From positions 1 to 43,252 of the forward strand of contig JASHNY010000038.1 of the NCBI GenBank assembly GCA_030041385.1: a stretch of 43,252 nt of DNA, read 5' to 3'. Positions 2,075 to 21,086 of this stretch are shown one piece after another. A program made the translations under genes and the position numbers. Each line of letters starts with the position of its first letter. Positions within the stretch are counted from its first letter, which is position 1. Under the pieces are notes generated by a model. That model saw only the letters and a program-made list of their open reading frames with translations. It had not been told where the DNA came from and searched no databases. The stretch is from Alphaproteobacteria bacterium. Its GTDB lineage: Bacteria; Pseudomonadota; Alphaproteobacteria; ATCC43930; CGMCC-115725.

Positions 2075-3328
2075 TCAGGCGAACGACTCGGTCATCGCCG
2101 AATAGACCAGCGTGCGCAGATCCCGGCGCAAGGTCAGGCGCGCCTCGCTGCCGATGACCTGGGTCATGAACACGACCGTCAATTCTTCCTTGGGGTCGAT
2201 CCAGAAGGCGGTGGCGGCGGCGCCGCCCCAGAAATATTCGCCGACCGTGCCGGGCAGGCGGGTCTTGGCGACATCGACATTGACGCCGCAGCCGAGCGAG
2301 AAGCCGACGCCGGCATACCCGCTTTCGCTGAACATGCCGGGCAGCGCCATGTCGGCCACCTCCCTTCCGTCGGGCAGGTAGTTGAGGCTGAACAAGGCAA
2401 CCGTCTTGGGGCTGAGGATTTTCACGCCGTCGAGCGTGCCGCCGTTCAGCATCATGCGGCAGAAGCGCAGATAGTCGTGCGCCGTCGACACCAGCCCGCC
2501 GCCGCCCGATTCAAGCTCCGGCGGCTTGGCGTAGGTGCTTTCGCGGGCGTCATCCTGGAGCTTCAGCCCCCGCCCTCCGGCCTCCGGCTGATAGCAGCAG
2601 GCGAACCGATCGGTCTTGTCCTCCGGCACGGAGAATGCGGTGTCGCGCAAGCCGAGCGGCTCGAACAGCCGGGTGCGCAGGAACTCGCCGAAGCGCATGC
2701 CCGACAGCTTTTCGACGAGGTAGCCGAGCACGTCGATCGACACCGAATAATTCCACGCCGTTCCCGGCGAGAATTCGAGCGGGATTTGCGCCAGCTTGTC
2801 GACCATGCCCTGCAATCCCCCGGCGGCCTGGCGGTCGGTCACCTCGGCCCGGCGATAGGCGGCATCGACCGCGCTGCGCATCATGAAGCCATAGGTGAGG
2901 CCCGAGGTGTGGGTCGCCAGGTCGATGATTTTCATCGGCCGCATCACCGGGGTCGTCAGATAGCCGGGCGTCGCGTCGGCCAACAGCGACGGCATGCCGC
3001 TGGCATAAACGCCGAGCTTCGCCCAGGCCGGAATGTGGCTGTGAACGGCGTCGTCGAGGCCGACGAGCCCCTCTTCGACCAGCATCATCAACGCGACCGC
3101 CGTGATCGGCTTGCTCATCGAGTAGATGCGGAAGATCGCGTCTTCGCGCATCGGCTTGCCGCGCTCGATGTCGATGTGGCCGCACATGGCGGTATGGACC
3201 AGGTGGCCCTTGCGATAGATATAGGTCAGCATCCCGGGCAGATAGCCGCCCTCGACATAGCGGCGCTTCATCACCTCGTCGAGCCGCGCCAGGCGCGCCG
3301 ACGACAGGCCTACTGTTTCGGGCTTCAT
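2075..3328 (-). CDS. Serine hydrolase, beta-lactamase fold, second copy
   Basis: A 417-residue member of the same esterase superfamily as its downstream neighbour. The SMSK tetrad is at S70-K73, NYSVS provides the second motif, GGGGLVSTA follows, and a WGGAAATAFWIDP block near the C-terminus is typical of these enzymes. The start at MKPETVGLSS is chosen because AGGAGG sits just upstream and family similarity begins there; the frame is open further upstream but that stretch has no family character. No secretion signal is seen. It is divergent from the Cys-hydrolase operon that begins at 3592. Function is hydrolysis of an ester or amide of unknown identity. Confidence 0.9.
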   Translation of the reverse strand: MKPETVGLSSARLARLDEVMKRRYVEGGYLPGMLTYIYRKGHLVHTAMCGHIDIERGKPMREDAIFRIYSMSKPITAVALMMLVEEGLVGLDDAVHSHIPAWAKLGVYASGMPSLLADATPGYLTTPVMRPMKIIDLATHTSGLTYGFMMRSAVDAAYRRAEVTDRQAAGGLQGMVDKLAQIPLEFSPGTAWNYSVSIDVLGYLVEKLSGMRFGEFLRTRLFEPLGLRDTAFSVPEDKTDRFACCYQPEAGGRGLKLQDDARESTYAKPPELESGGGGLVSTAHDYLRFCRMMLNGGTLDGVKILSPKTVALFSLNYLPDGREVADMALPGMFSESGYAGVGFSLGCGVNVDVAKTRLPGTVGEYFWGGAAATAFWIDPKEELTVVFMTQVIGSEARLTLRRDLRTLVYSAMTESFA

Positions 3329-3591
3329 CAGCGTCCTCCTCGAGGCAGGCTGCCGTTGCCAGCATAGGGTGCCCGGCCGCCGATGGCGAGCGCGCCGGGC
3401 GGCATCTGCTGCGCTCTTGCGCGGCAAAACATTGCCGGCGAATAAGCCGGCCGAAAAGCTTGAAGCGGAGGGTGCGTCCGCGCGATAGAATCCGCCCCGG
3501 GGAACGTCGGCGCCGCGCGGAACCCCCGGCGGCGCGTGCGGCGGATCGAGATGCGCGCCTCGCGCCACGACACCGGAGAAGGAGGAAACCC

Positions 3592-4371
3592 ATGCCGTTC
3601 TACGAAAAAGGCGACGTTCGCATTCATTACGAAGAGGCCGGCTCGGGCTTTCCGCTCCTGGTCATTCCCGGCGGCGGGCTGAACTCGACGGTCGCGGGCC
3701 TGGCCAACCACCCGTTCAACCCGTTCGATGAGTTTAAGCGCGAATACCGCGTTATCGGCGCCGATTTGCGCAACGCCAATGGCGGACAATCCTCAGGGCC
3801 GCTCGCGATCGACCGGCCGTGGGATGCCTATACCGACGACCATCTCGGGCTGATGGACCATCTGGGCATCCGGGAATTCATGGTGCTGGGCTTCTGCATC
3901 GGCGGCCCGTTCATCTGGAACCTGCTGCGGCGCGCGCCCGGGCGCATCGTCGCCGCCGTGCTGGCGCAGCCGAGCGGGTTCCGCCCGGAGATTCCCGACC
4001 TCTTCTACCAGAACAACATCAAAGGCTGGGGCCCGGCGCTGTGCGAGCGGCGGCCCGACATCACGATGGAGATGGTCGGCGCCTTTCTCAGCAAGATGTA
4101 TCGCGCCAACCCCGATTTCGTCTTTACGGTGACGCGCGATTTCGTCCGCGCCTGCCAGACGCCGATCCTCGTCCTGCCCGACGACGTCCCGGCTCACCCC
4201 TATGCCGTGGCGATGGAAAGCGTGCATCTGGCGCCGAACGCGCAGGTGAGCCTCTATCCGTGGAAGGCCTCCGCGGAGCAGATCCCGCTGGCGGTGCGCC
4301 ACATCCGCACCTTCCTCAAGGCCAACCAACCCGCCGTCGCGGTGCATCAGGCCGCGGCTGCCGCCCAATAG
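3592..4371 (+). CDS. Alpha/beta hydrolase with Cys nucleophile elbow (paralogue 1)
   Basis: This is a 259-residue single-domain alpha/beta hydrolase. The oxyanion-side PGGG motif lies at 26-29 and the nucleophile elbow GFCIGG places Cys102 where most relatives have Ser. Dienelactone hydrolases use a similar GYCxGG elbow. The acid candidates are D197/D198 in LPDDVPAHPY. The loop that normally carries the catalytic His reads YPWKA, with no His; H202 in the AHPY segment is a possible substitute. The ATG follows a strong GGAGGA ribosome site. It heads a three-gene operon with a beta-propeller gene and a close paralogue. Fold is certain, catalytic chemistry and substrate are not. Confidence 0.88.
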   Translation: MPFYEKGDVRIHYEEAGSGFPLLVIPGGGLNSTVAGLANHPFNPFDEFKREYRVIGADLRNANGGQSSGPLAIDRPWDAYTDDHLGLMDHLGIREFMVLGFCIGGPFIWNLLRRAPGRIVAAVLAQPSGFRPEIPDLFYQNNIKGWGPALCERRPDITMEMVGAFLSKMYRANPDFVFTVTRDFVRACQTPILVLPDDVPAHPYAVAMESVHLAPNAQVSLYPWKASAEQIPLAVRHIRTFLKANQPAVAVHQAAAAAQ

Positions 4372-4408
4372 TGGGTTTCGCGCTCATTTTCCGAGGAGGA
4401 AAACGGCG

Positions 4409-5281
4409 ATGGCACAGATTGGCACGGGCAAATACACCTATGAACTGATCCCCGACTTCTTCAAACTGCCCGGCGGAGAACCGTTCGGGCTGATCAGCAG
4501 GGTCGCGGCCGACGCGCAGGACCGCATCTACGTGTTCCAGCGCAAGGACCCGCCGGTCGTGGTGTTCGATCGCGACGGCACCTATCTCGGCGCCTGGGGC
4601 AGCGGCGAGATCACCGACCCGCACGGGCTGAAGATCGTCGGCGACACGGTCTACACCACCGACCGCTCGGACTCGGTGGCGAAATCGTTCTCGCTCGACG
4701 GCAAGGTCAAACTGTCGCTGGGCACCCGCGGCCAGCATTCCGACACCGGCCGCGTCGAGAACTGGCTGGTCGAACGCGCGGCAGGGCCATTCAACCATCC
4801 GACCGAGATGATGGCCCACCCCAACGGCGACATCTATGTGACCGACGGGTACCGCAATGCCCGCGTGCACCGCTTCACCGGCGACGGAAGACTGGTCAAA
4901 TCGTGGGGCACGCCGGGCAAGGGCGAAGGCCAGTTCCACCTGCCGCACAGCATCGCCTTCGACCCCGACGGCAGGCTCTATGTCGCCGACCGGTCGAACA
5001 AGCGCATCCAGATCTTCTCGCCCGAGGGCGACTTCCTCGGCCAATGGACCGGGATGGGCGGGCCGAACGACATCACCCGCGGCCGGGACGGCAATTTCTA
5101 CATTGCCGAGCAGGAAGATGCCGGCAACCCCGCCTATGTCTGCATTCGCGACGGCGAGGGAACGGTGCTCGCCCGCATGGCGAGCCGCCATGTCCACGGT
5201 GTCGGCGTCGACTCGCGCGGCGACATCTACGCGGGATTGACCCAGGACCGCGGTGTGGACAAGTTCGTGCGGAAGGGTTGA
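4409..5281 (+). CDS. NHL-repeat six-bladed beta-propeller, PAL-like
   Basis: A 290-residue protein built of NHL-type repeats. The middle blades contain HPNGDIYVTDGYRNARVH and FDPDGRLYVADRSNKRIQIF, resembling the peptidyl-alpha-hydroxyglycine alpha-amidating lyase (PAL) domain and bacterial SMP-30/gluconolaconase-like propellers. No signal peptide or membrane segment is visible, so it is probably cytoplasmic. The ATG has GAGGAGGAAAA upstream. It lies between two paralogous Cys-type alpha/beta hydrolases with gaps of 37 and 58 bp, so the three are very likely co-transcribed and act on related substrates. Whether it is a lyase, a lactonase or a binding scaffold cannot be told from sequence. Confidence 0.85.
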   Translation: MAQIGTGKYTYELIPDFFKLPGGEPFGLISRVAADAQDRIYVFQRKDPPVVVFDRDGTYLGAWGSGEITDPHGLKIVGDTVYTTDRSDSVAKSFSLDGKVKLSLGTRGQHSDTGRVENWLVERAAGPFNHPTEMMAHPNGDIYVTDGYRNARVHRFTGDGRLVKSWGTPGKGEGQFHLPHSIAFDPDGRLYVADRSNKRIQIFSPEGDFLGQWTGMGGPNDITRGRDGNFYIAEQEDAGNPAYVCIRDGEGTVLARMASRHVHGVGVDSRGDIYAGLTQDRGVDKFVRKG

Positions 5282-5339
5282 GCCAGAGCGGATAGACGCA
5301 TACGGACCCCGGACATCCACCAGGCAAGGAGGAACAGCC

Positions 5340-6101
5340 ATGCCGTTCTACGAAAAAGGCAACGTTCGCATCCGCTACGAGGAGACCGGGTCCGGTTTCC
5401 CGCTGCTGGTCACCCCCGGCGGAGGCTTGAACTCCCAGGTCACCAACTGGCCGACCGCGGTGTTCAACGCGCCCGAGGAGTTCAAGAACGACTTCCGCTG
5501 CATCACGATGGACCAGCGCAATGCCAATGGCGGCGAGTCGACGGGCCCGATCCCGACCGGCGATCCGTGGGACGCCTTTGCCGACGACCAGCTGGGGCTG
5601 ATGGACCATCTTGGCATCGATAAGTTCTTCTACATGGGCTACTGCATCGGCGGCTGTTTTGCCGGCAAGCTGATGCAGCGGGCTCCCGGGCGCGTCGTCG
5701 CCGCCGTGTTCTGCCAGAGCGTCGGACACCGGCCGGAAGACCCGGATGTGATGTACCGGCACGGCCATGAAAACTGGGTCCCCGAGTTCCGTGCCCGGCG
5801 GCCCGACGTGACGATGGAAACGATCGAGAAATATTTTCACAATCTCTACCGCGTGAACCCCGATTTCCTGTACAGCGTGTCGCGCGACTTCATCCGCAAC
5901 TGCCGCACCCCGATGCTGGTATTGCCCGACGACACGCCCGCGCACCCCTACCAGACCTCGGTCGACGTCGCCTCGCTGGCGCCGAATGCCGAGGTGACGG
6001 TTTTCCCGTGGCGGGAGCCGCCCGAGTTGAAGGCGCGGACAATCAACCGGGTGCGCAACTTCCTCAAGGCGCATGTGCCGATGCGGGCCGCCGCACAGTA
6101 A
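5340..6101 (+). CDS. Alpha/beta hydrolase with Cys nucleophile elbow (paralogue 2)
   Basis: A 253-residue paralogue of the protein at 3592; the N-termini are nearly identical (MPFYEKG, then VRI, YEE and GSGFPLLV) and alignment runs without large gaps. The elbow is GYCIGG with Cys102, exactly the dienelactone hydrolase form. LPDDTPAHPY carries the acid candidates D197/D198 and H202, and the usual His loop reads FPWRE, again without His. That both copies share these changes argues they are functional traits, not damage. The ATG is preceded by AAGGAGGAA. It is the last gene of the operon; a stable hairpin follows 25 bp after the stop. Confidence 0.88.
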   Translation: MPFYEKGNVRIRYEETGSGFPLLVTPGGGLNSQVTNWPTAVFNAPEEFKNDFRCITMDQRNANGGESTGPIPTGDPWDAFADDQLGLMDHLGIDKFFYMGYCIGGCFAGKLMQRAPGRVVAAVFCQSVGHRPEDPDVMYRHGHENWVPEFRARRPDVTMETIEKYFHNLYRVNPDFLYSVSRDFIRNCRTPMLVLPDDTPAHPYQTSVDVASLAPNAEVTVFPWREPPELKARTINRVRNFLKAHVPMRAAAQ

Positions 6102-7319: not shown

Positions 7320-8621
7320 ATGGGTCGCCTTGATCGGCGTCGTTTTTTGCAGCTTTCCGGTGGGGTGGCGGCGGTTATCGCGAGTGGCCGGGCGCCAGCC
7401 TATGCGCAGCAGACGACGCTGCACTGGGTACGCTGGTCGGATTTCGTGCCGGCGTCGGACACGCTGCTCAAAGGCAAGATTACCGAGGAATGCCAGAAGG
7501 CGCTCGGCATCAAATTGCAGCTCGAAACCATCAACGCCAACGACATTCAGGCGCGCGTCACCTCGGCGATCCAGTCCGGAAACGGGCCGGACATCATCTT
7601 CGCGCTCAACAACTGGCCGCAGCTTTACAGCACCAGCCTCGCCGACGTCAGCGACGTGGCCGAGGAGATCGGCCACGAACAGGGCGGCTATTACCCGATC
7701 TCGAAACAGGTCGCGACGGTCGGCAACAAGTGGATCGGGGTGCCGTGGGCGATCGGCGGCGGCCTCGTCGCCTATCGCAAATCGTGGTTCGACGAGATCG
7801 GCTACCACACTTTCCCCGACACCTGGGAGAAACTGCAGGACGCCGGCAAGAAGCTGAAGGCCAAGGGCACGCCGATCGGCCAGGCGCTGAGCCATTCGTT
7901 TGGCGACCCGCCGGGCTTCTGGTATCCGTGGCTGTGGTCGTGGGGCGGCAAGGAGGTCGACGCCGACGGCAAGACCGTCGCGCTCAACAGCAAGGCGACG
8001 CTGGAGTCGGTCGAGCGGGCCGTGCCGTTCTGGAATGAGGCGTGCGATCCGGGCGGTCTGGCCTGGGACGATTCGAGCAACAACCGCGCCTTTCTGGCGG
8101 GCACGATCTGCTGCACCAACAACGGCGCCTCGATCTATATCGAAGCCAAGCGCAAACCCGACACCTACCAGACCGAGAAGGGCACGCCGATGTACAAGGA
8201 CATCCGGCACGCCCCGCTGCCCAAGGGTCCGGGCGGGCAATACAACCTGCCCGGTCCGTTCACCGACATGGTCATGCAGTATTCAAAGAACCAGAAGGCG
8301 GCCAAGACGTTCCTCAAATGGGTCCACACGAAGCCGGTATTCGAGGAATGGTTCACCTCGCAGCAGGGCTACACCGACGGCGCCACCAGGTATTGGGAGA
8401 AGGACAAGGTGTGGAGCGCCGACCCGGTGCTGACGCCGTTCAAGAACCTGCCGCGCCAGGGCCGGCTAACCGGCTATGCGGGGCCGCCGGGCCGCGCCGC
8501 AGCGGAGGTCCAAACGAAGTACATCATCATCGACATGTACGCCAAGGCGGTCCAGGGCATGAAGGCCCAGGACGCCGTCAACTGGGCCACCGGCGAGCTG
8601 AAGTCGATTTATAGTGTGTAA
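7320..8621 (+). CDS. ABC transporter substrate-binding protein, family 1 (sugar type)
   Basis: A 433-residue periplasmic binding protein. The N-terminus has a twin-arginine signal (RRRFLQLSGG, residues 6-15), a hydrophobic stretch and a likely AYA cleavage site at 27-29, so it is exported folded by Tat. The mature part has the extracellular solute-binding family 1 layout (SAIQSGNGPDIIFALNN near 85-100; PWAIGGGLVAYRKSWFDEIG near 140-160). Related proteins bind sugars, polyols or glycerol-phosphates. It is the first gene of an operon with two MalF/MalG-type permeases and a MalK-type ATPase. The ATG is preceded by GGGGGGAG. The ligand cannot be told; the adjacent amidohydrolase hints at a nitrogenous compound. 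Confidence 0.93.
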   Translation: MGRLDRRRFLQLSGGVAAVIASGRAPAYAQQTTLHWVRWSDFVPASDTLLKGKITEECQKALGIKLQLETINANDIQARVTSAIQSGNGPDIIFALNNWPQLYSTSLADVSDVAEEIGHEQGGYYPISKQVATVGNKWIGVPWAIGGGLVAYRKSWFDEIGYHTFPDTWEKLQDAGKKLKAKGTPIGQALSHSFGDPPGFWYPWLWSWGGKEVDADGKTVALNSKATLESVERAVPFWNEACDPGGLAWDDSSNNRAFLAGTICCTNNGASIYIEAKRKPDTYQTEKGTPMYKDIRHAPLPKGPGGQYNLPGPFTDMVMQYSKNQKAAKTFLKWVHTKPVFEEWFTSQQGYTDGATRYWEKDKVWSADPVLTPFKNLPRQGRLTGYAGPPGRAAAEVQTKYIIIDMYAKAVQGMKAQDAVNWATGELKSIYSV

Positions 8622-8641
8622 GGCGGCGCAATTCGCCGCTT
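8621..8641 (+). other. mRNA hairpin directly after the binding-protein stop codon
   Basis: GCGGCG (8623-8628) and CGCCGC (8634-8639) form a 5-nt-loop hairpin, extendable by one wobble and one A-T pair, starting at the last base of the stop codon. Similar intercistronic hairpins protect binding-protein mRNA and raise its level over the permeases in other importer operons. Confidence 0.45.
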
Positions 8642-8709
8642 GCCGCCGCGTCCGCGGATCGTCGCGGGCGCGGCGCGCGCCGCATTGAACGGGTCCGGAG
8701 AGCGCCGCC

Positions 8710-9657
8710 ATGTCCCTCCTTTCCGCCGCCTCATCCCGGGCGTATGTCGTTCGTCGCCCGCGCGGGCCGATCGGCCGGATGCTCGAAGACGAGCGGTGGC
8801 TGGGGCTGGCGCTGCTGGCGCCGACCATCATCCTCCTCGGCCTGTTCGTCGCCTATCCCTTCGTCAAGGGCATCGAATTGGCGGTCACCAACACCACGGT
8901 GGGGCAGCCGGGGCATTTCGTCGGGTTGCAGAATTTCGTCGCGCTGTGGCACGACGACATCTTCCGCATGGCGGTGTGGAACACCTGCTTATACACGGTC
9001 GTCGCGACGACGACGAAACTGGCGCTGGGGCTGTGGCTGGCCTTGTTGCTGAACCGCAGCTTTCGCGGCAAGGCCTTCATGCGCGCCTTCATCCTGCTGC
9101 CGTTCATCATCCCGACGGTGCTGTCGACCTTTGCCTGGAAGTGGATGTTCGACCCGACCTTCAGCGTCATCAATTACGTTTTGCTGCATCTCCACCTGAT
9201 CACGGTCGCCGACCGGATCAACTGGCTTGGCGAGCCGGTGCTGGCGATGGTCTCGGTTATCATCGTCAATGTGTGGCGCGGCGTACCGTTCTTCGCGATC
9301 AGCCTGCTCGCGGGCTTGCAGACGATCAGCCCGGAATTGCACGAGGCGGCGGCGATCGATGGCGCGCGCGCCTGGGCGCGCTTCCGCCATGTCACCTGGC
9401 CGCTATTGCTGCCGGTAACGATGGTGATCATGCTGTTTTCGGTGATTCAGACCTTCGCCGATTTCCAGCTCGTCTATGTTCTGACCGGCGGCGGACCCGC
9501 CAACACAACCCAGCTTTTCGCCACCTACGCCTACCAGATCGGCATCGGCACCGGGTTGCTGAGCCAAGGCGCGGCGATCTCGCTGGCGATCTTTCCGATC
9601 CTGCTGCTCGTCGTGATCGTGCAGCTCGTCTATATCCGCCGGGTCGAGACGGTCTAG
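8710..9657 (+). CDS. ABC transporter permease, MalF/UgpA type
   Basis: A 315-residue inner-membrane permease of the binding-protein-dependent transport family with about six transmembrane helices, starting with LGLALLAPTIILLGLFVAYP near residue 32. The EAA loop that docks on the ATPase reads EAAAIDGARAWARFRHVTWP. It has the long N-terminal cytoplasmic segment usual for the MalF-side partner of small sugar importers. The ATG has a weak CCGGAGAG ribosome site. It pairs with the permease at 9819; the gap between them is 161 bp and holds a dispersed palindromic repeat, unusual inside such an operon. Confidence 0.93.
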   Translation: MSLLSAASSRAYVVRRPRGPIGRMLEDERWLGLALLAPTIILLGLFVAYPFVKGIELAVTNTTVGQPGHFVGLQNFVALWHDDIFRMAVWNTCLYTVVATTTKLALGLWLALLLNRSFRGKAFMRAFILLPFIIPTVLSTFAWKWMFDPTFSVINYVLLHLHLITVADRINWLGEPVLAMVSVIIVNVWRGVPFFAISLLAGLQTISPELHEAAAIDGARAWARFRHVTWPLLLPVTMVIMLFSVIQTFADFQLVYVLTGGGPANTTQLFATYAYQIGIGTGLLSQGAAISLAIFPILLLVVIVQLVYIRRVETV

Positions 9658-9687
9658 TGGTCCAATTCAGACGAATGAGTCCGCGAC

Positions 9688-9757
9688 CGTCATTCCGGGG
9701 CGGCGCACAGGGCCGAGCCCGGAACCCGTTTTCCAGCGGCCGGTTCCTCGCAATGAC
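9688..9757. repeat. Dispersed palindromic (REP-like) element, copy A
   Basis: It begins CGTCATTCCGGGGCGGCGCA and ends CGCAATGAC, giving GTCATT/AATGAC inverted ends. The first 20 or so bases match the copy at 26259 almost exactly. It lies between the two permease genes. Confidence 0.7.
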
Positions 9758-9818
9758 AATGCAAGCCGAGCGGTATCCGATTCACTGGGATGGGCCCGAA
9801 CCATGATGGCAACCAACG

Positions 9819-10670
9819 ATGATTGAGGGAGCCCGCTGGCGGCGCTGGAGCTTTTTCTACGTGCCGGTGACCGCGTTCGTGATCTTTCTGCTGTTCCCGT
9901 TCTACTGGATGCTGGTGACCGCGATCCGGCCGGATCGCGAATTGTACAAGCCGTGGAGCTCGCCGCTCTACCAGCCGTTCTGGACCCTGCACCCGACCTT
10001 TCAGCACGTCCACGACCTGTTAACGCAGACGCTGTTTTCGACGTGGATGCTGAACACGATGATCATCTCGATCGCGGCGACGCTGATCTCGCTGTTTTGC
10101 GGGCTGTTTGCCGGCTATGCGCTGTCGCGGCTGAAATTTCCGTTTGCCGGCAGCATCGGCACCGGCATCTTCATCACCTACCTGGTGCCGCAGACGCTCC
10201 TGTTCATTCCGCTTTCCGACATCATCCGCAATTTCCACCTCGGCGACACGCCGTGGGCGCTGATCCTGACCTATCCCACCTTTCTCGTGCCGTTCTGCAC
10301 CTGGCTGTTGATGGGATATTTCAAATCGATCCCCAAGGAGCTCGAGGAATGCGCCCGGATCGATGGGGCGACGCGATGGAAGGCGATGCTGTTCATCGTC
10401 TTTCCGGTCGCCCTGCCCGGCATCCTGTCGGCCGGGATCTTTGCCTTCACCCTGTCGTGGAACGAGTTCATCTATGCACTGGTGTTCCTGTCCTCGCCCA
10501 CCGAAAAGACCGTGTCGGTCGGGGTCACCTCTGACCTGGTCCGCGGCGACGTGTTTTATTGGGGCCAATTGATGGCGGGCGCGCTGCTCGGGTCGATCCC
10601 GGTCGCGTTCGTCTATTCGTTCTTCGTCGAGCATTACGTCTCGGGCATCACCGGGTCGGTGAAAGGATAG
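9819..10670 (+). CDS. ABC transporter permease, MalG/UgpE type
   Basis: A 283-residue permease with about six transmembrane helices, the first being FYVPVTAFVIFLLFPFYWML near residues 13-32. The EAA loop reads LEECARIDGATRWKAMLFIV, and the C-terminus (EHYVSGITGSVKG) is characteristic of MalG-side subunits. An in-frame stop at 9804-9806 makes the ATG at 9819 the first possible one. It has no clear ribosome site of its own, but a seven-codon frame (9803-9826) overlaps the start and could couple translation. It ends 4 bp before the ATPase gene. Confidence 0.93.
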   Translation: MIEGARWRRWSFFYVPVTAFVIFLLFPFYWMLVTAIRPDRELYKPWSSPLYQPFWTLHPTFQHVHDLLTQTLFSTWMLNTMIISIAATLISLFCGLFAGYALSRLKFPFAGSIGTGIFITYLVPQTLLFIPLSDIIRNFHLGDTPWALILTYPTFLVPFCTWLLMGYFKSIPKELEECARIDGATRWKAMLFIVFPVALPGILSAGIFAFTLSWNEFIYALVFLSSPTEKTVSVGVTSDLVRGDVFYWGQLMAGALLGSIPVAFVYSFFVEHYVSGITGSVKG

Positions 10671-10674
10671 GTCG

Positions 10675-11766
10675 ATGGCTCGAGTCGTCATTCGCAGCCT
10701 GAACAAGAAGTACGACGAGTTTCACGCCGTCAAGGACGTGAACCTCGACATTCGCGATCAGGAATTCGTCGTATTGGTCGGCCCCAGCGGCTGCGGCAAG
10801 ACCACCACATTGCGCATGGTCGCGGGCCTCGAAAGCATCACCTCGGGCCATATTCTGATCGACGACACGGTGGTCAACGAGTTGCCGCCGATGGATCGCG
10901 ACATCGCGATGGTGTTTCAGAATTATGCGCTCTACCCGCATATGAGCGTCTACGACAACATGGCGTTCGGCCTCAAGATGCGGAAGTTCGACCGCAGCCA
11001 GATCGGCACGCGGGTGCAGGAAGCGGCCGAGATCCTGGGCATTCAGGATTATCTGAAGCGCAAGCCGCGCCAGCTTTCCGGCGGGCAGCGCCAGCGCGTC
11101 GCGCTCGGCCGCGCGATCGTGCGGCATCCGCGCGTGTTCCTGTTCGATGAGCCGCTGTCCAACCTCGACGCGAAATTGCGCGTGCAGATGCGGGTCGAGC
11201 TCAAAAAACTGCACGTGCGGCTCGGCACCACGGCGATCTACGTGACCCACGACCAGGTCGAGGCGATGACGCTCGGCGACCGCGTCGTGGTGATGCGCGA
11301 CGGCTGGGTCCAGCAGGTCGGCGAACCGCTCGAACTCTACAATCAGCCGGCCAACCGGTTCGTCGCCGGGTTTCTCGGCTCGCCGGCGATGAATTTCACG
11401 ACGGTTCGGCTGAGCCGCGAGAATGGCGGGCTATGGGCGCTGGCCGACGGCATCCGGCTGAAATTGCCGCAGACCGCTGCCTCCCGGCTCGCGCCCTATG
11501 CCGACCGGGAGGTCTCGCTGGGCGTGCGGCCCGAGGATATGCGGGTCGCCGGCGCGGCCGACCCGGACGATTTGGCCATCGACGCGCTGGTCGAGGTGGT
11601 CGAGCGGCTCGGCTCGGAAATCCTGCTCGATGTGACGGTCGGCGGCACGACGATGGTGGCTGCGGTCGATCCGTCGGTGGTCGCCAACATGCACGACCGC
11701 TTGCGCCTCGCGCTCAACCCCGAGCGCCTGCATTTCTTCGACAGCGCCACCGAAGCGGCGATCTAG
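10675..11766 (+). CDS. ABC transporter ATPase, MalK/UgpC type
   Basis: A 363-residue ATPase that powers the importer encoded just upstream. Walker A is GPSGCGKT (36-43), the Q-loop lies in MVFQNYALYPHMSVYDN, the signature is LSGGQRQR (134-141), Walker B is VFLFDEP with the catalytic E159, and the switch His is in YVTHDQVEAMTLGD. Residues after about 240 form the TOBE/OB domain typical of carbohydrate-type importers. The start codon lies 4 bp after the permease stop, showing close coupling. The operon could end here or continue into the amidohydrolase 144 bp downstream. Confidence 0.95.
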   Translation: MARVVIRSLNKKYDEFHAVKDVNLDIRDQEFVVLVGPSGCGKTTTLRMVAGLESITSGHILIDDTVVNELPPMDRDIAMVFQNYALYPHMSVYDNMAFGLKMRKFDRSQIGTRVQEAAEILGIQDYLKRKPRQLSGGQRQRVALGRAIVRHPRVFLFDEPLSNLDAKLRVQMRVELKKLHVRLGTTAIYVTHDQVEAMTLGDRVVVMRDGWVQQVGEPLELYNQPANRFVAGFLGSPAMNFTTVRLSRENGGLWALADGIRLKLPQTAASRLAPYADREVSLGVRPEDMRVAGAADPDDLAIDALVEVVERLGSEILLDVTVGGTTMVAAVDPSVVANMHDRLRLALNPERLHFFDSATEAAI

Positions 11767-11910: not shown

Positions 11911-13140
11911 ATGGACCTGATCGTCAAGAACGCGCGGCCGGTGCAGGATCTCGCCGGCGGCCTCGTGGATATCGGCGTCGCCGATGGATGCATCGTTGCG
12001 ATGGGGCCGCATCTCGCCGGCGCTGGCGAAACCTACGATGCCGGCGGACGGCTGGTCTGCGCCGGGCTGATCGAGACCCATATCCACCTCGACAAGTCGC
12101 GCATCATCGACCGCTGTCCCCCGCCCTCGACGCGTCGCATCAATCCGGTCGAATTGACCGCGCCGCTGAAGCGCGACTTCACCGTCGCCGATATCCACGA
12201 GCGCGCCGAGCAGACGCTGTGCGAATGCCTCGTCAACGGCACGACGCGGATGCGCACCCAGGTCGAGATCGACCCGGTCGTCGGCCTCTCGGGGTTCGAG
12301 GCGATCACCTCGCTGGCGGCCGACTACCGCTGGGCGATCGATGTCGAAACCTGCGTGTTTCCGCAGGAAGGACTGACCAACAATCCCGGCACCGAGGAAT
12401 TATTGGCCGCGGCGCTGAAGGCGGGCGCCCCGGTGCTCGGCGGCGCGCCGCGCTACGACAATGACCCGAATGGCCAGCTCGACAGGCTGTTTGCGCTCGC
12501 CCGCGAGTTCGATGTCGACCTCGATCTGCATCTCGATGTCGGCGACACCGCCGACACGATGCATATCGCGCACGTGCTGGCCTTGACCGAGCGCTACCGG
12601 CGCGGTGGCCGCGTCGTCGCCGGCCACATGGCGAAACTGTCGCTGCTGCCGCCGGGCGAGCTCGCCGCGATGGCGCGCCGCCTTGCCGATGCCGGGATCG
12701 CGGTCAGCGTGTTGCCGGCGACCGACCTCTATTTGATGGGGCGCGACCAGGATCATGCCGTGCGCCGCGGCGTCGCCGACGCCAATTTCCTCGCCGAGCA
12801 CGGCGTCACCTGCGCGCTATCGAGCAACAACGTGCTGAACCCGGCGACCCCTTACGGCGATTGCTCGCTGATCCGCATCGCCAACCTGCACGCCAATCTG
12901 CTTCAGGTCGCCGGGGCAGCGCGATTGCGCGAGTTGTTCCTGATGCTGAGCGAGCATTCGGCGCGGCTGCTGCGCCTTGCCGATTACGGCCTCGCGCCCG
13001 GCAACCCGGCCGATATCGTCGTCTTCGATGCGACGAGCGCCGAGCAGGCGGTAGCGGAAATCCGCTCGCCGCTCGCCGCATGGAAGCGCGGGCGCCGCAC
13101 CCTCACCCGCCGCCCGCCCGAACTGCACCGGCCGGGCTAA
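11911..13140 (+). CDS. CodA-like amidohydrolase with altered active site
   Basis: A 409-residue protein that aligns along its length with cytosine deaminase (CodA) in the amidohydrolase superfamily. The metal-binding ETHIHLDK motif gives H57 and H59; H207 (in LDLHLDV) and H239 (AGHM) match the other two His ligands. However, the CodA catalytic Glu in HCDE is replaced by Val (HLDV, V210), and the metal-ligand Asp of GHDD is replaced by Asn (SSNN, N306). A conserved VFPQEGL block is retained. Cytosine deamination is therefore unlikely; another hydrolysis or a non-catalytic role is possible. It follows the importer genes on the same strand, suggesting it acts on the imported compound. Confidence 0.82.
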   Translation: MDLIVKNARPVQDLAGGLVDIGVADGCIVAMGPHLAGAGETYDAGGRLVCAGLIETHIHLDKSRIIDRCPPPSTRRINPVELTAPLKRDFTVADIHERAEQTLCECLVNGTTRMRTQVEIDPVVGLSGFEAITSLAADYRWAIDVETCVFPQEGLTNNPGTEELLAAALKAGAPVLGGAPRYDNDPNGQLDRLFALAREFDVDLDLHLDVGDTADTMHIAHVLALTERYRRGGRVVAGHMAKLSLLPPGELAAMARRLADAGIAVSVLPATDLYLMGRDQDHAVRRGVADANFLAEHGVTCALSSNNVLNPATPYGDCSLIRIANLHANLLQVAGAARLRELFLMLSEHSARLLRLADYGLAPGNPADIVVFDATSAEQAVAEIRSPLAAWKRGRRTLTRRPPELHRPG

Positions 13141-20196: not shown

Positions 20197-20281
20197 CGCC
20201 GGCGATGATGCCGGGCCGGGCACAACGAAGGGTTAACGCCGCTTATGCGGCGCGCCGGGCCTGCGGAGCGGATGGCAAAGC

Positions 20282-20368
20282 TGGTGCGGTCGAGAAGACT
20301 CGAACTTCCACGGAGTTTCCCCCACAGCGACCTCAACGCTGCGCGTCTACCAATTCCGCCACGACCGC
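20282..20368 (-). tRNA. tRNA-Leu (anticodon GAG)
   Basis: The 87-nt minus-strand sequence has acceptor GCGGTCG/CGACCGC, anticodon stem CAGCG/CGCTG with loop TTGAGGT (anticodon GAG), a long class II variable arm, TTCGAGT T-loop and an encoded CCA. It decodes CUC and CUU. It is divergent from lipB, whose start is about 50 bp away. Confidence 0.97.
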
Positions 20369-20417
20369 ACGCCGGGGAGTGGGGCGCGTCCTAGCAAATA
20401 CGGGGTATCATAGCAAG

Positions 20418-21086
20418 ATGAACGACGGATCTTGGCCCCGTGCAATCGAATGGCGCCACAGCGACGCGCTCGTCCCCTACGACGCGGCCGTAGCCGCAAT
20501 GGAGGCGCGGGCGGCGGCGATCCGTGACCAAGGCGCGCCGGAACTGGTGTGGCTGTTGGAGCACCCGCCGCTCTATACCGCCGGCACCAGCGCGGACGCG
20601 GCCGAGCTGCTCGACCCGCAGGCGCTGCCCGTGTTCAAAAGCGGCCGCGGCGGGCGGTTCACCTATCACGGGCCTGGCCAGCGCGTGGCCTATGTGCTGC
20701 TCGACCTCGACCGCCACGGGCATGACGTGCGCTGCCACGTGTGGCGGCTCGAAGAATGGATGATCCGCGCCTTGGCGCGGTTCAACGTGCGCGGCGAGCG
20801 GCGCGACGGGCGGATCGGCGTGTGGGTTGCCGGGCGCGATGGCGGCGAGGCCAAGATCGCTGCAATCGGGGTCAGGATACGGCGCTGGATCACCTATCAC
20901 GGCGTTGCCTTGAACGTGGACCCGGACCTTAGTCATTTTCGCGGCATCGTGCCCTGCGGCATCGCCGATTACGGCGTCACCTCGCTCGCCGCGCTCGGCA
21001 TCACCGCGACGATGGCAGAGGTCGACATCGCGCTCAGGGCGACCTTCGATGACGTGTTCGCGGCGGCGCCGGCGTGCAATTCCTGA
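20418..21086 (+). CDS. lipB: Octanoyltransferase LipB
   Basis: A 222-residue enzyme that moves octanoyl from acyl carrier protein to lipoyl domains, the first step of endogenous lipoate synthesis. The catalytic Cys180 is in [15 protein letters not shown], the conserved Lys146 in AKIAAIGV, and [17 protein letters not shown] matches the substrate-binding block. The start at [12 protein letters not shown] fits the family length; there is no clear ribosome site. TATCAT at 20406-20411 lies only six bases before the ATG, which suggests a leaderless transcript, but no -35 is evident. Lipoate is needed by the branched-chain and pyruvate dehydrogenase complexes that feed the nearby acyl-CoA genes. Confidence 0.95.

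Follow-up and report, generated by a model that had tools for sequence, protein, structure and literature searches.

The alpha/beta hydrolase fold defines one of the large enzyme superfamilies, in which, according to sections of a 2024 survey, the catalytic acid is mobile and may migrate to strand 6, whereas the catalytic His is fixed, being totally conserved and supplied by the loop that joins strand 8 to helix F (PMC11878206). The same sections give the triad of dienelactone hydrolase (PF01738) as C-D-H, with the His after strand 8 as for the superfamily generally (PMC11878206). Here, two paralogous Cys-elbow hydrolases, HydA and HydB, are described, which flank a propeller resembling the amidating lyase PAL at positions 3592 to 6101 of contig JASHNY010000038.1 (assembly GCA_030041385.1, Alphaproteobacteria bacterium); the window denotes the whole stretch of 43,252 nucleotides that was analysed. 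On balance, we favour the reading that HydA and HydB are members of a separate family of bacterial alpha/beta hydrolases with a Cys-His-Asp machinery, in which the acid loop after strand 7, rather than the strand-8 loop, now provides the base. The predicted fold, the invariance of the residues concerned, the loss of the canonical His and the position of H202 on the acid loop are seen directly, whereas the catalytic roles of C102 and H202 are putative.

Comparison with described hydrolases

Dienelactone hydrolase shares the alpha/beta hydrolase fold and a Cys nucleophile at the elbow with HydA and HydB, but it keeps the strand-8 His, whereas HydA and HydB have no His there. Enzymes of the Abhydrolase_1 family (Est1 6eb3, CumD, BphD and enol-lactonase) have the fold and the family match in common with the two proteins; their nucleophile is presumably Ser, as PDB titles also indicate (S103A and S112A mutants). 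Est1 and PhaZ keep a strand-8 GH motif; the HydA/HydB family has a Cys and an acid-loop His. The Cys thioesterase domains of SulM and ObiF resemble HydA and HydB in having a Cys nucleophile and one triad member that is oddly placed for its class. In those domains it is the Asp that is displaced, to a loop following strand 7, whereas for HydA and HydB a displaced His is proposed; in SulM, as stated in part of the report, the His stays after strand 8 (PMC11298585). Further Cys hydrolases of the alpha/beta fold, natural or engineered, appear in portions of two other reports (PMC9853848, PMC6642262). No alpha/beta hydrolase with a moved His was found in the literature, of which mainly open-access text was covered, so that this is not proof of absence in print. 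If the favoured reading is true, the rule of a totally conserved strand-8 His would be broken and evolution would have reached the same triad geometry by a second route; pipelines requiring that His would call such enzymes dead, and protein engineers would gain a new Cys-based template.

Residue set and predicted fold of HydA and HydB

The genes and codons concerned are located as follows.

3592..4371, plus strand: HydA, Cys-elbow alpha/beta hydrolase, 259 amino acids
3895..3897, plus strand: codon of HydA C102, the proposed nucleophile, in the GFCIGG elbow
4174..4203, plus strand: acid loop of HydA, LPDDVPAHPY, with D197, D198 and H202
4195..4197, plus strand: codon of HydA H202, the proposed relocated base
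4258..4266, plus strand: HydA P223-W224-K225, in the loop that normally bears the catalytic His
4409..5281, plus strand: PAL-like six-bladed NHL propeller, 290 amino acids
5340..6101, plus strand: HydB, a paralogue of HydA, 253 amino acids
5643..5645, plus strand: codon of HydB C102
5943..5945, plus strand: codon of HydB H202
6006..6014, plus strand: HydB P223-W224-R225

HydA and HydB are 55% identical and carry C102, the LPDD motif from position 195, H202 and the PW pair from position 223 under the same numbering. Both have the GxCIGG elbow; positions 223-225 read PWK in HydA and PWR in HydB, and the acid-loop segments (LPDDVPAHPY and LPDDTPAHPY) differ solely at the residue after LPDD. Thus, the set that a first-pass annotation had reported for both hydrolases (a Cys elbow, no canonical His and an LPDDxPAHPY segment) is real, since C102, H202 and PWK/PWR can be read directly. 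The only positions at which both proteins have a His are 90 and 202. A third family member in the same genome (G000:C97:1494-2219), 43% identical to HydA, contains the corresponding motifs GQCIGG, LAGNDEAHPYP and EWK.

Both proteins match the Abhydrolase_1 profile (PF00561) with 42.4 (HydA) and 55 bits (HydB) against a cut-off of 25.8, and score 13.5 and 11.8 bits, respectively, with the dienelactone hydrolase profile (PF01738), below its cut-off of 21. No NCBIfam model scored above its cut-off for either protein, and none of the matches in the profile searches was to a metal-enzyme family. The structure of HydA was predicted with AlphaFold2 (AF2) from an 88-row alignment (mean predicted local distance difference test score, pLDDT, 95.2; predicted template modelling score, pTM, 0.91). 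The model contains strand 5 (96-101), a post-elbow helix (104-114), strand 7 (192-195), helix E (204-213), strand 8 (217-219) and helix F (230-245), and C102 follows strand 5 directly, at the nucleophile-elbow position of the alpha/beta hydrolase fold. Among the 50 PDB matches listed, the best reached Z scores of about 20-24, and the best solved match was the ordinary hydrolase 6eb3 (Z 23.6, 216 residues, root-mean-square deviation 2.7).

Loss of the canonical His

HydA has no His in the segment linking strand 8 to helix F (about 220-229). Profile alignments place the canonical His at position 226 (PhaZ) or 227 (Est1), two or three residues past W224. In an alignment of 88 proteins, position 226 is occupied by E (42), D (35), A (6), Q (4) or T (1), and the residues listed for position 227 are P (56), T (18), S (5), N (5), V (2) and E (1). 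Since both positions are variable and show no His among the residues listed, the canonical His site is not conserved; the absence of the strand-8 His, by which HydA and HydB had been set apart from dienelactone hydrolase, thus extends over the family. Any His within positions 219-233 was found in only 10 rows of a wider set, at differing places. Given these residues at positions 226 and 227, a canonical triad with a strand-8 His cannot be upheld for HydA and HydB; their membership of the fold stands. A C-D-H triad of the dienelactone hydrolase type, with a strand-8 His, was rejected as well, the Cys being present and the His absent from that loop.

Ordinary hydrolases of the same genome served as a control. 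Its 51 Abhydrolase_1 matches yielded 30 loci, one of which is HydB and three of which were unreadable (one cut at the end, two in the wrong frame). All 26 readable loci outside the family have a His at the canonical place (L196 judged by eye).

In the HydA model, the other shared His, H90, is found where the helix preceding strand 5 ends. It is unlikely to be the base, because ordinary relatives carry a His there, as seen at the aligned place in chloroperoxidase F and arylesterase.

Invariance across the family

The family was scanned with one genome per species, and the best 80 of at least 497 confirmed loci were kept. The 88-protein alignment comprises HydA, HydB and 86 proteins from these 80 loci. 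C102, D197, H202, P203, P223 and W224 are each present in 88/88 proteins, followed by D198 (87, with one E), H90 (87) and K225 (81, with six R and one Q). In a wider alignment of 125 rows, some of which represent one protein repeated from overlapping loci, C102, H202, P203 and W224 are found in all 119 rows covering site 202; the remaining six are four cut-off family fragments and two ordinary Ser hydrolases. These 119 rows divide into 102 with D197 and the acid loop of HydA and HydB (A/B type) and 17 with G197 and D199 (C type), and C102, H202 and W224 are present in 17/17 of the latter. C102, H202, P203 and W224 are likewise invariant in a 12-row alignment across subfamilies, whose C-type rows are 36-41% identical to HydA.

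In a tree of 56 rows (31 of the 92 A rows, all 8 B and all 17 C), A, B and C each fall on one side of a branch, with A plus B joined at 100/100; long branches meet in this tree, and its root is set by midpoint only. HydB represents a lineage-specific duplication of HydA and probably acts on a related substrate. The initial observation on the two copies therefore holds and is wider than stated, the pattern being family-wide and not private to them. Conservation in both copies, which had been taken to hint at a paired system, was confirmed, but it is not special to such a system: relatives from several phyla that have no twin show these residues just as invariantly.

Position of H202 and proposed mechanism

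In the AF2 model and the profile alignments, H202 is located on the acid loop, between strand 7 and helix E, and corresponds to the residue before the acid-loop Pro (PhaZ RDYVVP, Est1 DDMLIP). With acid 199, as in the C type, H202 is exactly the acid+3 residue, and with D198 or D197, as in the A/B type, it lies one or two residues further on. Part of a study comparing 40 alpha/beta hydrolase families reports contact between the acid+3 residue and the catalytic His ring in 22 of them (PMC7034887). The suggestion that H202 might act as base is likely correct: by invariance and acid-loop position it appears to be the best candidate.

C102 and H202 form an invariant pair of catalytic type, from which the following steps are extrapolated. 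C102 at the nucleophile elbow would attack the carbonyl of an ester, thioester or lactone. In this fold, the elbow backbone acts as oxyanion support for the attacked carbonyl. H202 would replace the lost strand-8 His, taking the proton from C102 and later activating water, and would be oriented by an acid on its own loop, which would be D198 or D197 in A/B-type proteins and D199 in C-type proteins, with Trp224-Lys/Arg225 filling the vacated histidine loop. The nucleophile, the base and the reaction class are thus putative assignments. For the broader proposition, namely that this is the first alpha/beta hydrolase family with a migrated catalytic His, in which a Cys elbow is combined with base and acid on the strand-7 loop and with a Trp-Lys/Arg structural element in the strand-8 loop, and which is old enough to comprise at least two subfamilies in several phyla, we see even chances.

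Several points weigh against a relocated base. H202 is presumed to lie within reach of C102, and the invariance of both residues could also serve a non-hydrolytic or metal-binding role. The acid is found at 197/198 in the A/B type versus 199 in the C type, and such a one-residue displacement sits oddly with a tightly built triad. The PhaZ and Est1 alignments differ by one residue on the place of the canonical His. Moreover, the invariance of C102 (and the near-invariance of H90) among the 86 proteins from the loci is partly a product of construction, because the C-I-G elbow was written into one of the two search patterns and DHL, with H90, into the other; neither pattern included H202 or W224. 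Finally, HydA has no fixed neighbour partner in the 80 loci.

Alternative readings of the hydrolases

The enzymes might use Cys without a His base, with C102 as a preformed thiolate or paired with K/R225 or an acid, and H202 shaping the pocket or binding substrate. Dienelactone hydrolase, whose Cys is said to be paired with a non-His residue at rest, would offer a parallel, and the near-constant residue 225 (K 81, R 6, Q 1 of 88) lies one (PhaZ) or two (Est1) positions before the canonical His in the profile alignments. However, H202 (88/88) is kept more strictly than the basic residue at 225 (81 K and 6 R) and is invariant also in the distant C type, so that we regard this reading as unlikely. 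It is still less likely that C102, H202 and the loop Asp bind a metal or cofactor and that the family consists of lyases or isomerases rather than hydrolases: Cys, His and Asp are all invariant or nearly so, with the C-type acid only one residue from the A/B-type acid, but the Cys occupies precisely the nucleophile-elbow position, the fold is a standard one, and no metal-enzyme family was matched by the profiles. That the proteins are degenerate, non-catalytic hydrolases after loss of the His is the least probable reading, because mere loss would not predict such strict conservation of the elbow Cys, the acid loop and H202 across subfamilies and phyla, even if the superfamily, according to sections of the survey, includes families without catalytic residues (PMC11878206).

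The PAL-like propeller

Excerpts of one report describe PAL as a six-bladed propeller with zinc on three His (PMC8358657). The propeller of the window, predicted with AF2 from its single sequence (pLDDT 74.3, pTM 0.79), is NHL-type by fold. Rat PAL (3fvz) superimposes on residues 6-290 of the model with Z 30.7 over 268 residues (25% identity), tied on fold with TRIM2 (Z 31.1), the TRIM/NHL propellers ranging at Z 30-31. At the profile level, the best stretch spans 161 positions for PAL versus 55-105 for the chains of Thin, TRIM2, TRIM3 and TRIM71. Long stretches are likewise obtained for Brat (about 120) and the designed Pizza propellers (about 155), so that PAL does not stand out by length alone.

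PAL and the propeller have the motifs PHG, DGYxNxR, PHS and DRxNxRIQ, the His motif of the last blade and the six-bladed NHL fold in common, and when a paralogue of the propeller is aligned, its PHG and DGYxNxR coincide with those of PAL. R45, H72, Y148, H180, R195, R199 and H263 are invariant in 18/18 rows (the propeller, P0002, and 17 relatives). The proposed relationship to amidating lyases is thus supported by the match to 3fvz, tied with TRIM2, and by the invariance of residues of PAL-type motifs. The roles of individual PAL residues in zinc binding or catalysis, including those of the catalytic Tyr and Arg, are presumed here. PAL is a lyase with zinc and a peptide substrate, and the apparent likeness of the propeller to it derives from fold and motifs. 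As a tentative assignment, the propeller probably carries out a PAL-like lyase reaction in a small pathway shared with HydA and HydB. The genome encodes four more propeller paralogues (about 40-43% identical) at other places, so that this class of propeller is not tied to the hydrolases.

Association of the three genes

HydA, the propeller and HydB all lie on the plus strand with gaps of 37 and 58 bases, each preceded by a purine-rich ribosome-binding site. For the taxonomic family to which the window belongs, 39 genomes in 11 genera were covered. Close orthologues of HydB (one of them partial) and of the propeller are each present in 11/39 of these genomes, all in two of the 11 genera, and close HydA orthologues fall in the same two genera. 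Each of the 11 genomes with a propeller orthologue contains HydA or HydB. HydA and HydB adjoin in five other genomes (G001, G002, G003, G029 and G033) and lie about 1 kb apart in G004. Propeller contigs were examined in nine of the ten other genomes (G466 left out): the propeller stands beside HydA and HydB in G003, beside HydB in G005 and 3.1 kb from HydA in G034, and the stretch carries no hydrolase in 6/9 (G001, G002, G025, G029, G035 and G036), the contigs being short (3.3 to 9 kb). Among the 80 HydA loci, HydB is found in 5 and any propeller in 3. A further 21 loci (about 15 C type, 6 A type) contained no propeller at 1e-12 and no constant partner.

Recurrence of the three-gene set, raised by the first-pass annotation, is weakly supported, in that the orthologues occur in the same two genera, but the order is variable, and the window is the only locus among those read with the propeller between the hydrolases. 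We take the set as a loose, recent, genus-level association with variable order. The idea of a dedicated system, in which HydA and HydB would form a heteromer about the propeller, draws on the tight gene spacing, on the confinement of HydB and propeller orthologues to two of the 11 genera, where HydA orthologues also lie, and on the presence of HydA or HydB in all 11 genomes with a propeller orthologue. This co-occurrence is, however, confounded by shared ancestry and incomplete assemblies; together with the varying gene order, the six of nine (short) propeller contigs lacking a hydrolase and the presence of HydB in only 5/80 HydA loci, it makes such a system improbable.

Distribution of the family

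The 80 loci kept derive from Alpha-, Beta- and Gammaproteobacteria, Acidobacteria, Gemmatimonadetes and Chloroflexota. Most of them are from metagenome assemblies; isolates include Reyranella massiliensis 521 and Bradyrhizobium erythrophlei GAS478. Matches were obtained in 7/142 genomes of a class sample (at 1e-25) and in 5/299 genomes of a phylum sample (at 1e-40), and because so few sampled genomes match, the family is sporadic. Of the ten class-sample matches, nine reached 279-384 bits; the remaining one, at 93 bits, is a fragment of a family member and covers 75 of 246 positions. Judged by sequence, the family is sharply separated from other hydrolases. No close relative was found in a plasmid collection; a C-type protein is encoded on two Rhizobium indicum plasmid records. 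Tandem duplications with two adjoining A-type genes were observed at L161 (G005:C108) and L162 (G004:C28).

Gene neighbourhood of HydA

Neighbours were clustered for the 80 HydA loci (3.4 to 12.8 kb each). TctC-type binding proteins (16 loci), flavin monooxygenases (11), AMP-dependent ligases (11), SDR proteins (10), nitronate monooxygenases (8), GMC oxidoreductases (7) and acyl-CoA dehydrogenases (7) were found; because these counts stand without a background rate, they point only to a catabolic flavour, that is, to the catabolism of small organic compounds. Of the 21 further loci, 6 contained a member of one flavoprotein cluster, the representative of which matches flavin monooxygenases.

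The flavin monooxygenase genes lie within about 6 kb of HydA in the 11/80 loci (L080, L085, L092, L097, L110, L117 and others), six of which are from Bradyrhizobium. A monooxygenase-plus-esterase (Baeyer-Villiger) pairing is possible and offers a lead.

Other features of the window

Two genes of the serine beta-lactamase family (PF00144) are arranged in tandem at 795-1952 and 2075-3331 on the minus strand, in divergent orientation to HydA. The second gene recurs near HydA in L056 and L066 as a 73% identical copy, with a weaker one in L119. Downstream, a solute-binding protein (SBP_bac_8) is followed by open reading frames (ORFs) resembling two permeases and an ATPase, named from reading of the sequence (7320-11766, plus strand), and then by an amidohydrolase (11911-13140), likely forming an uptake and degradation cluster. 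PADLOC returned no defence-system match.

ARAGORN identified a selenocysteine tRNA (tca) at 606-700 on the minus strand. The same genome contains a SelA gene (PF03841, 511 bits, G000:C26:1037-2143), so that a selenocysteine system seems to be present. A tRNA-Leu (gag) at 20282-20368 on the minus strand is located inside a long ORF (20205-21086), whose true start is probably later, because it contains this tRNA and its lipoyl ligase domain begins only at residue 92.

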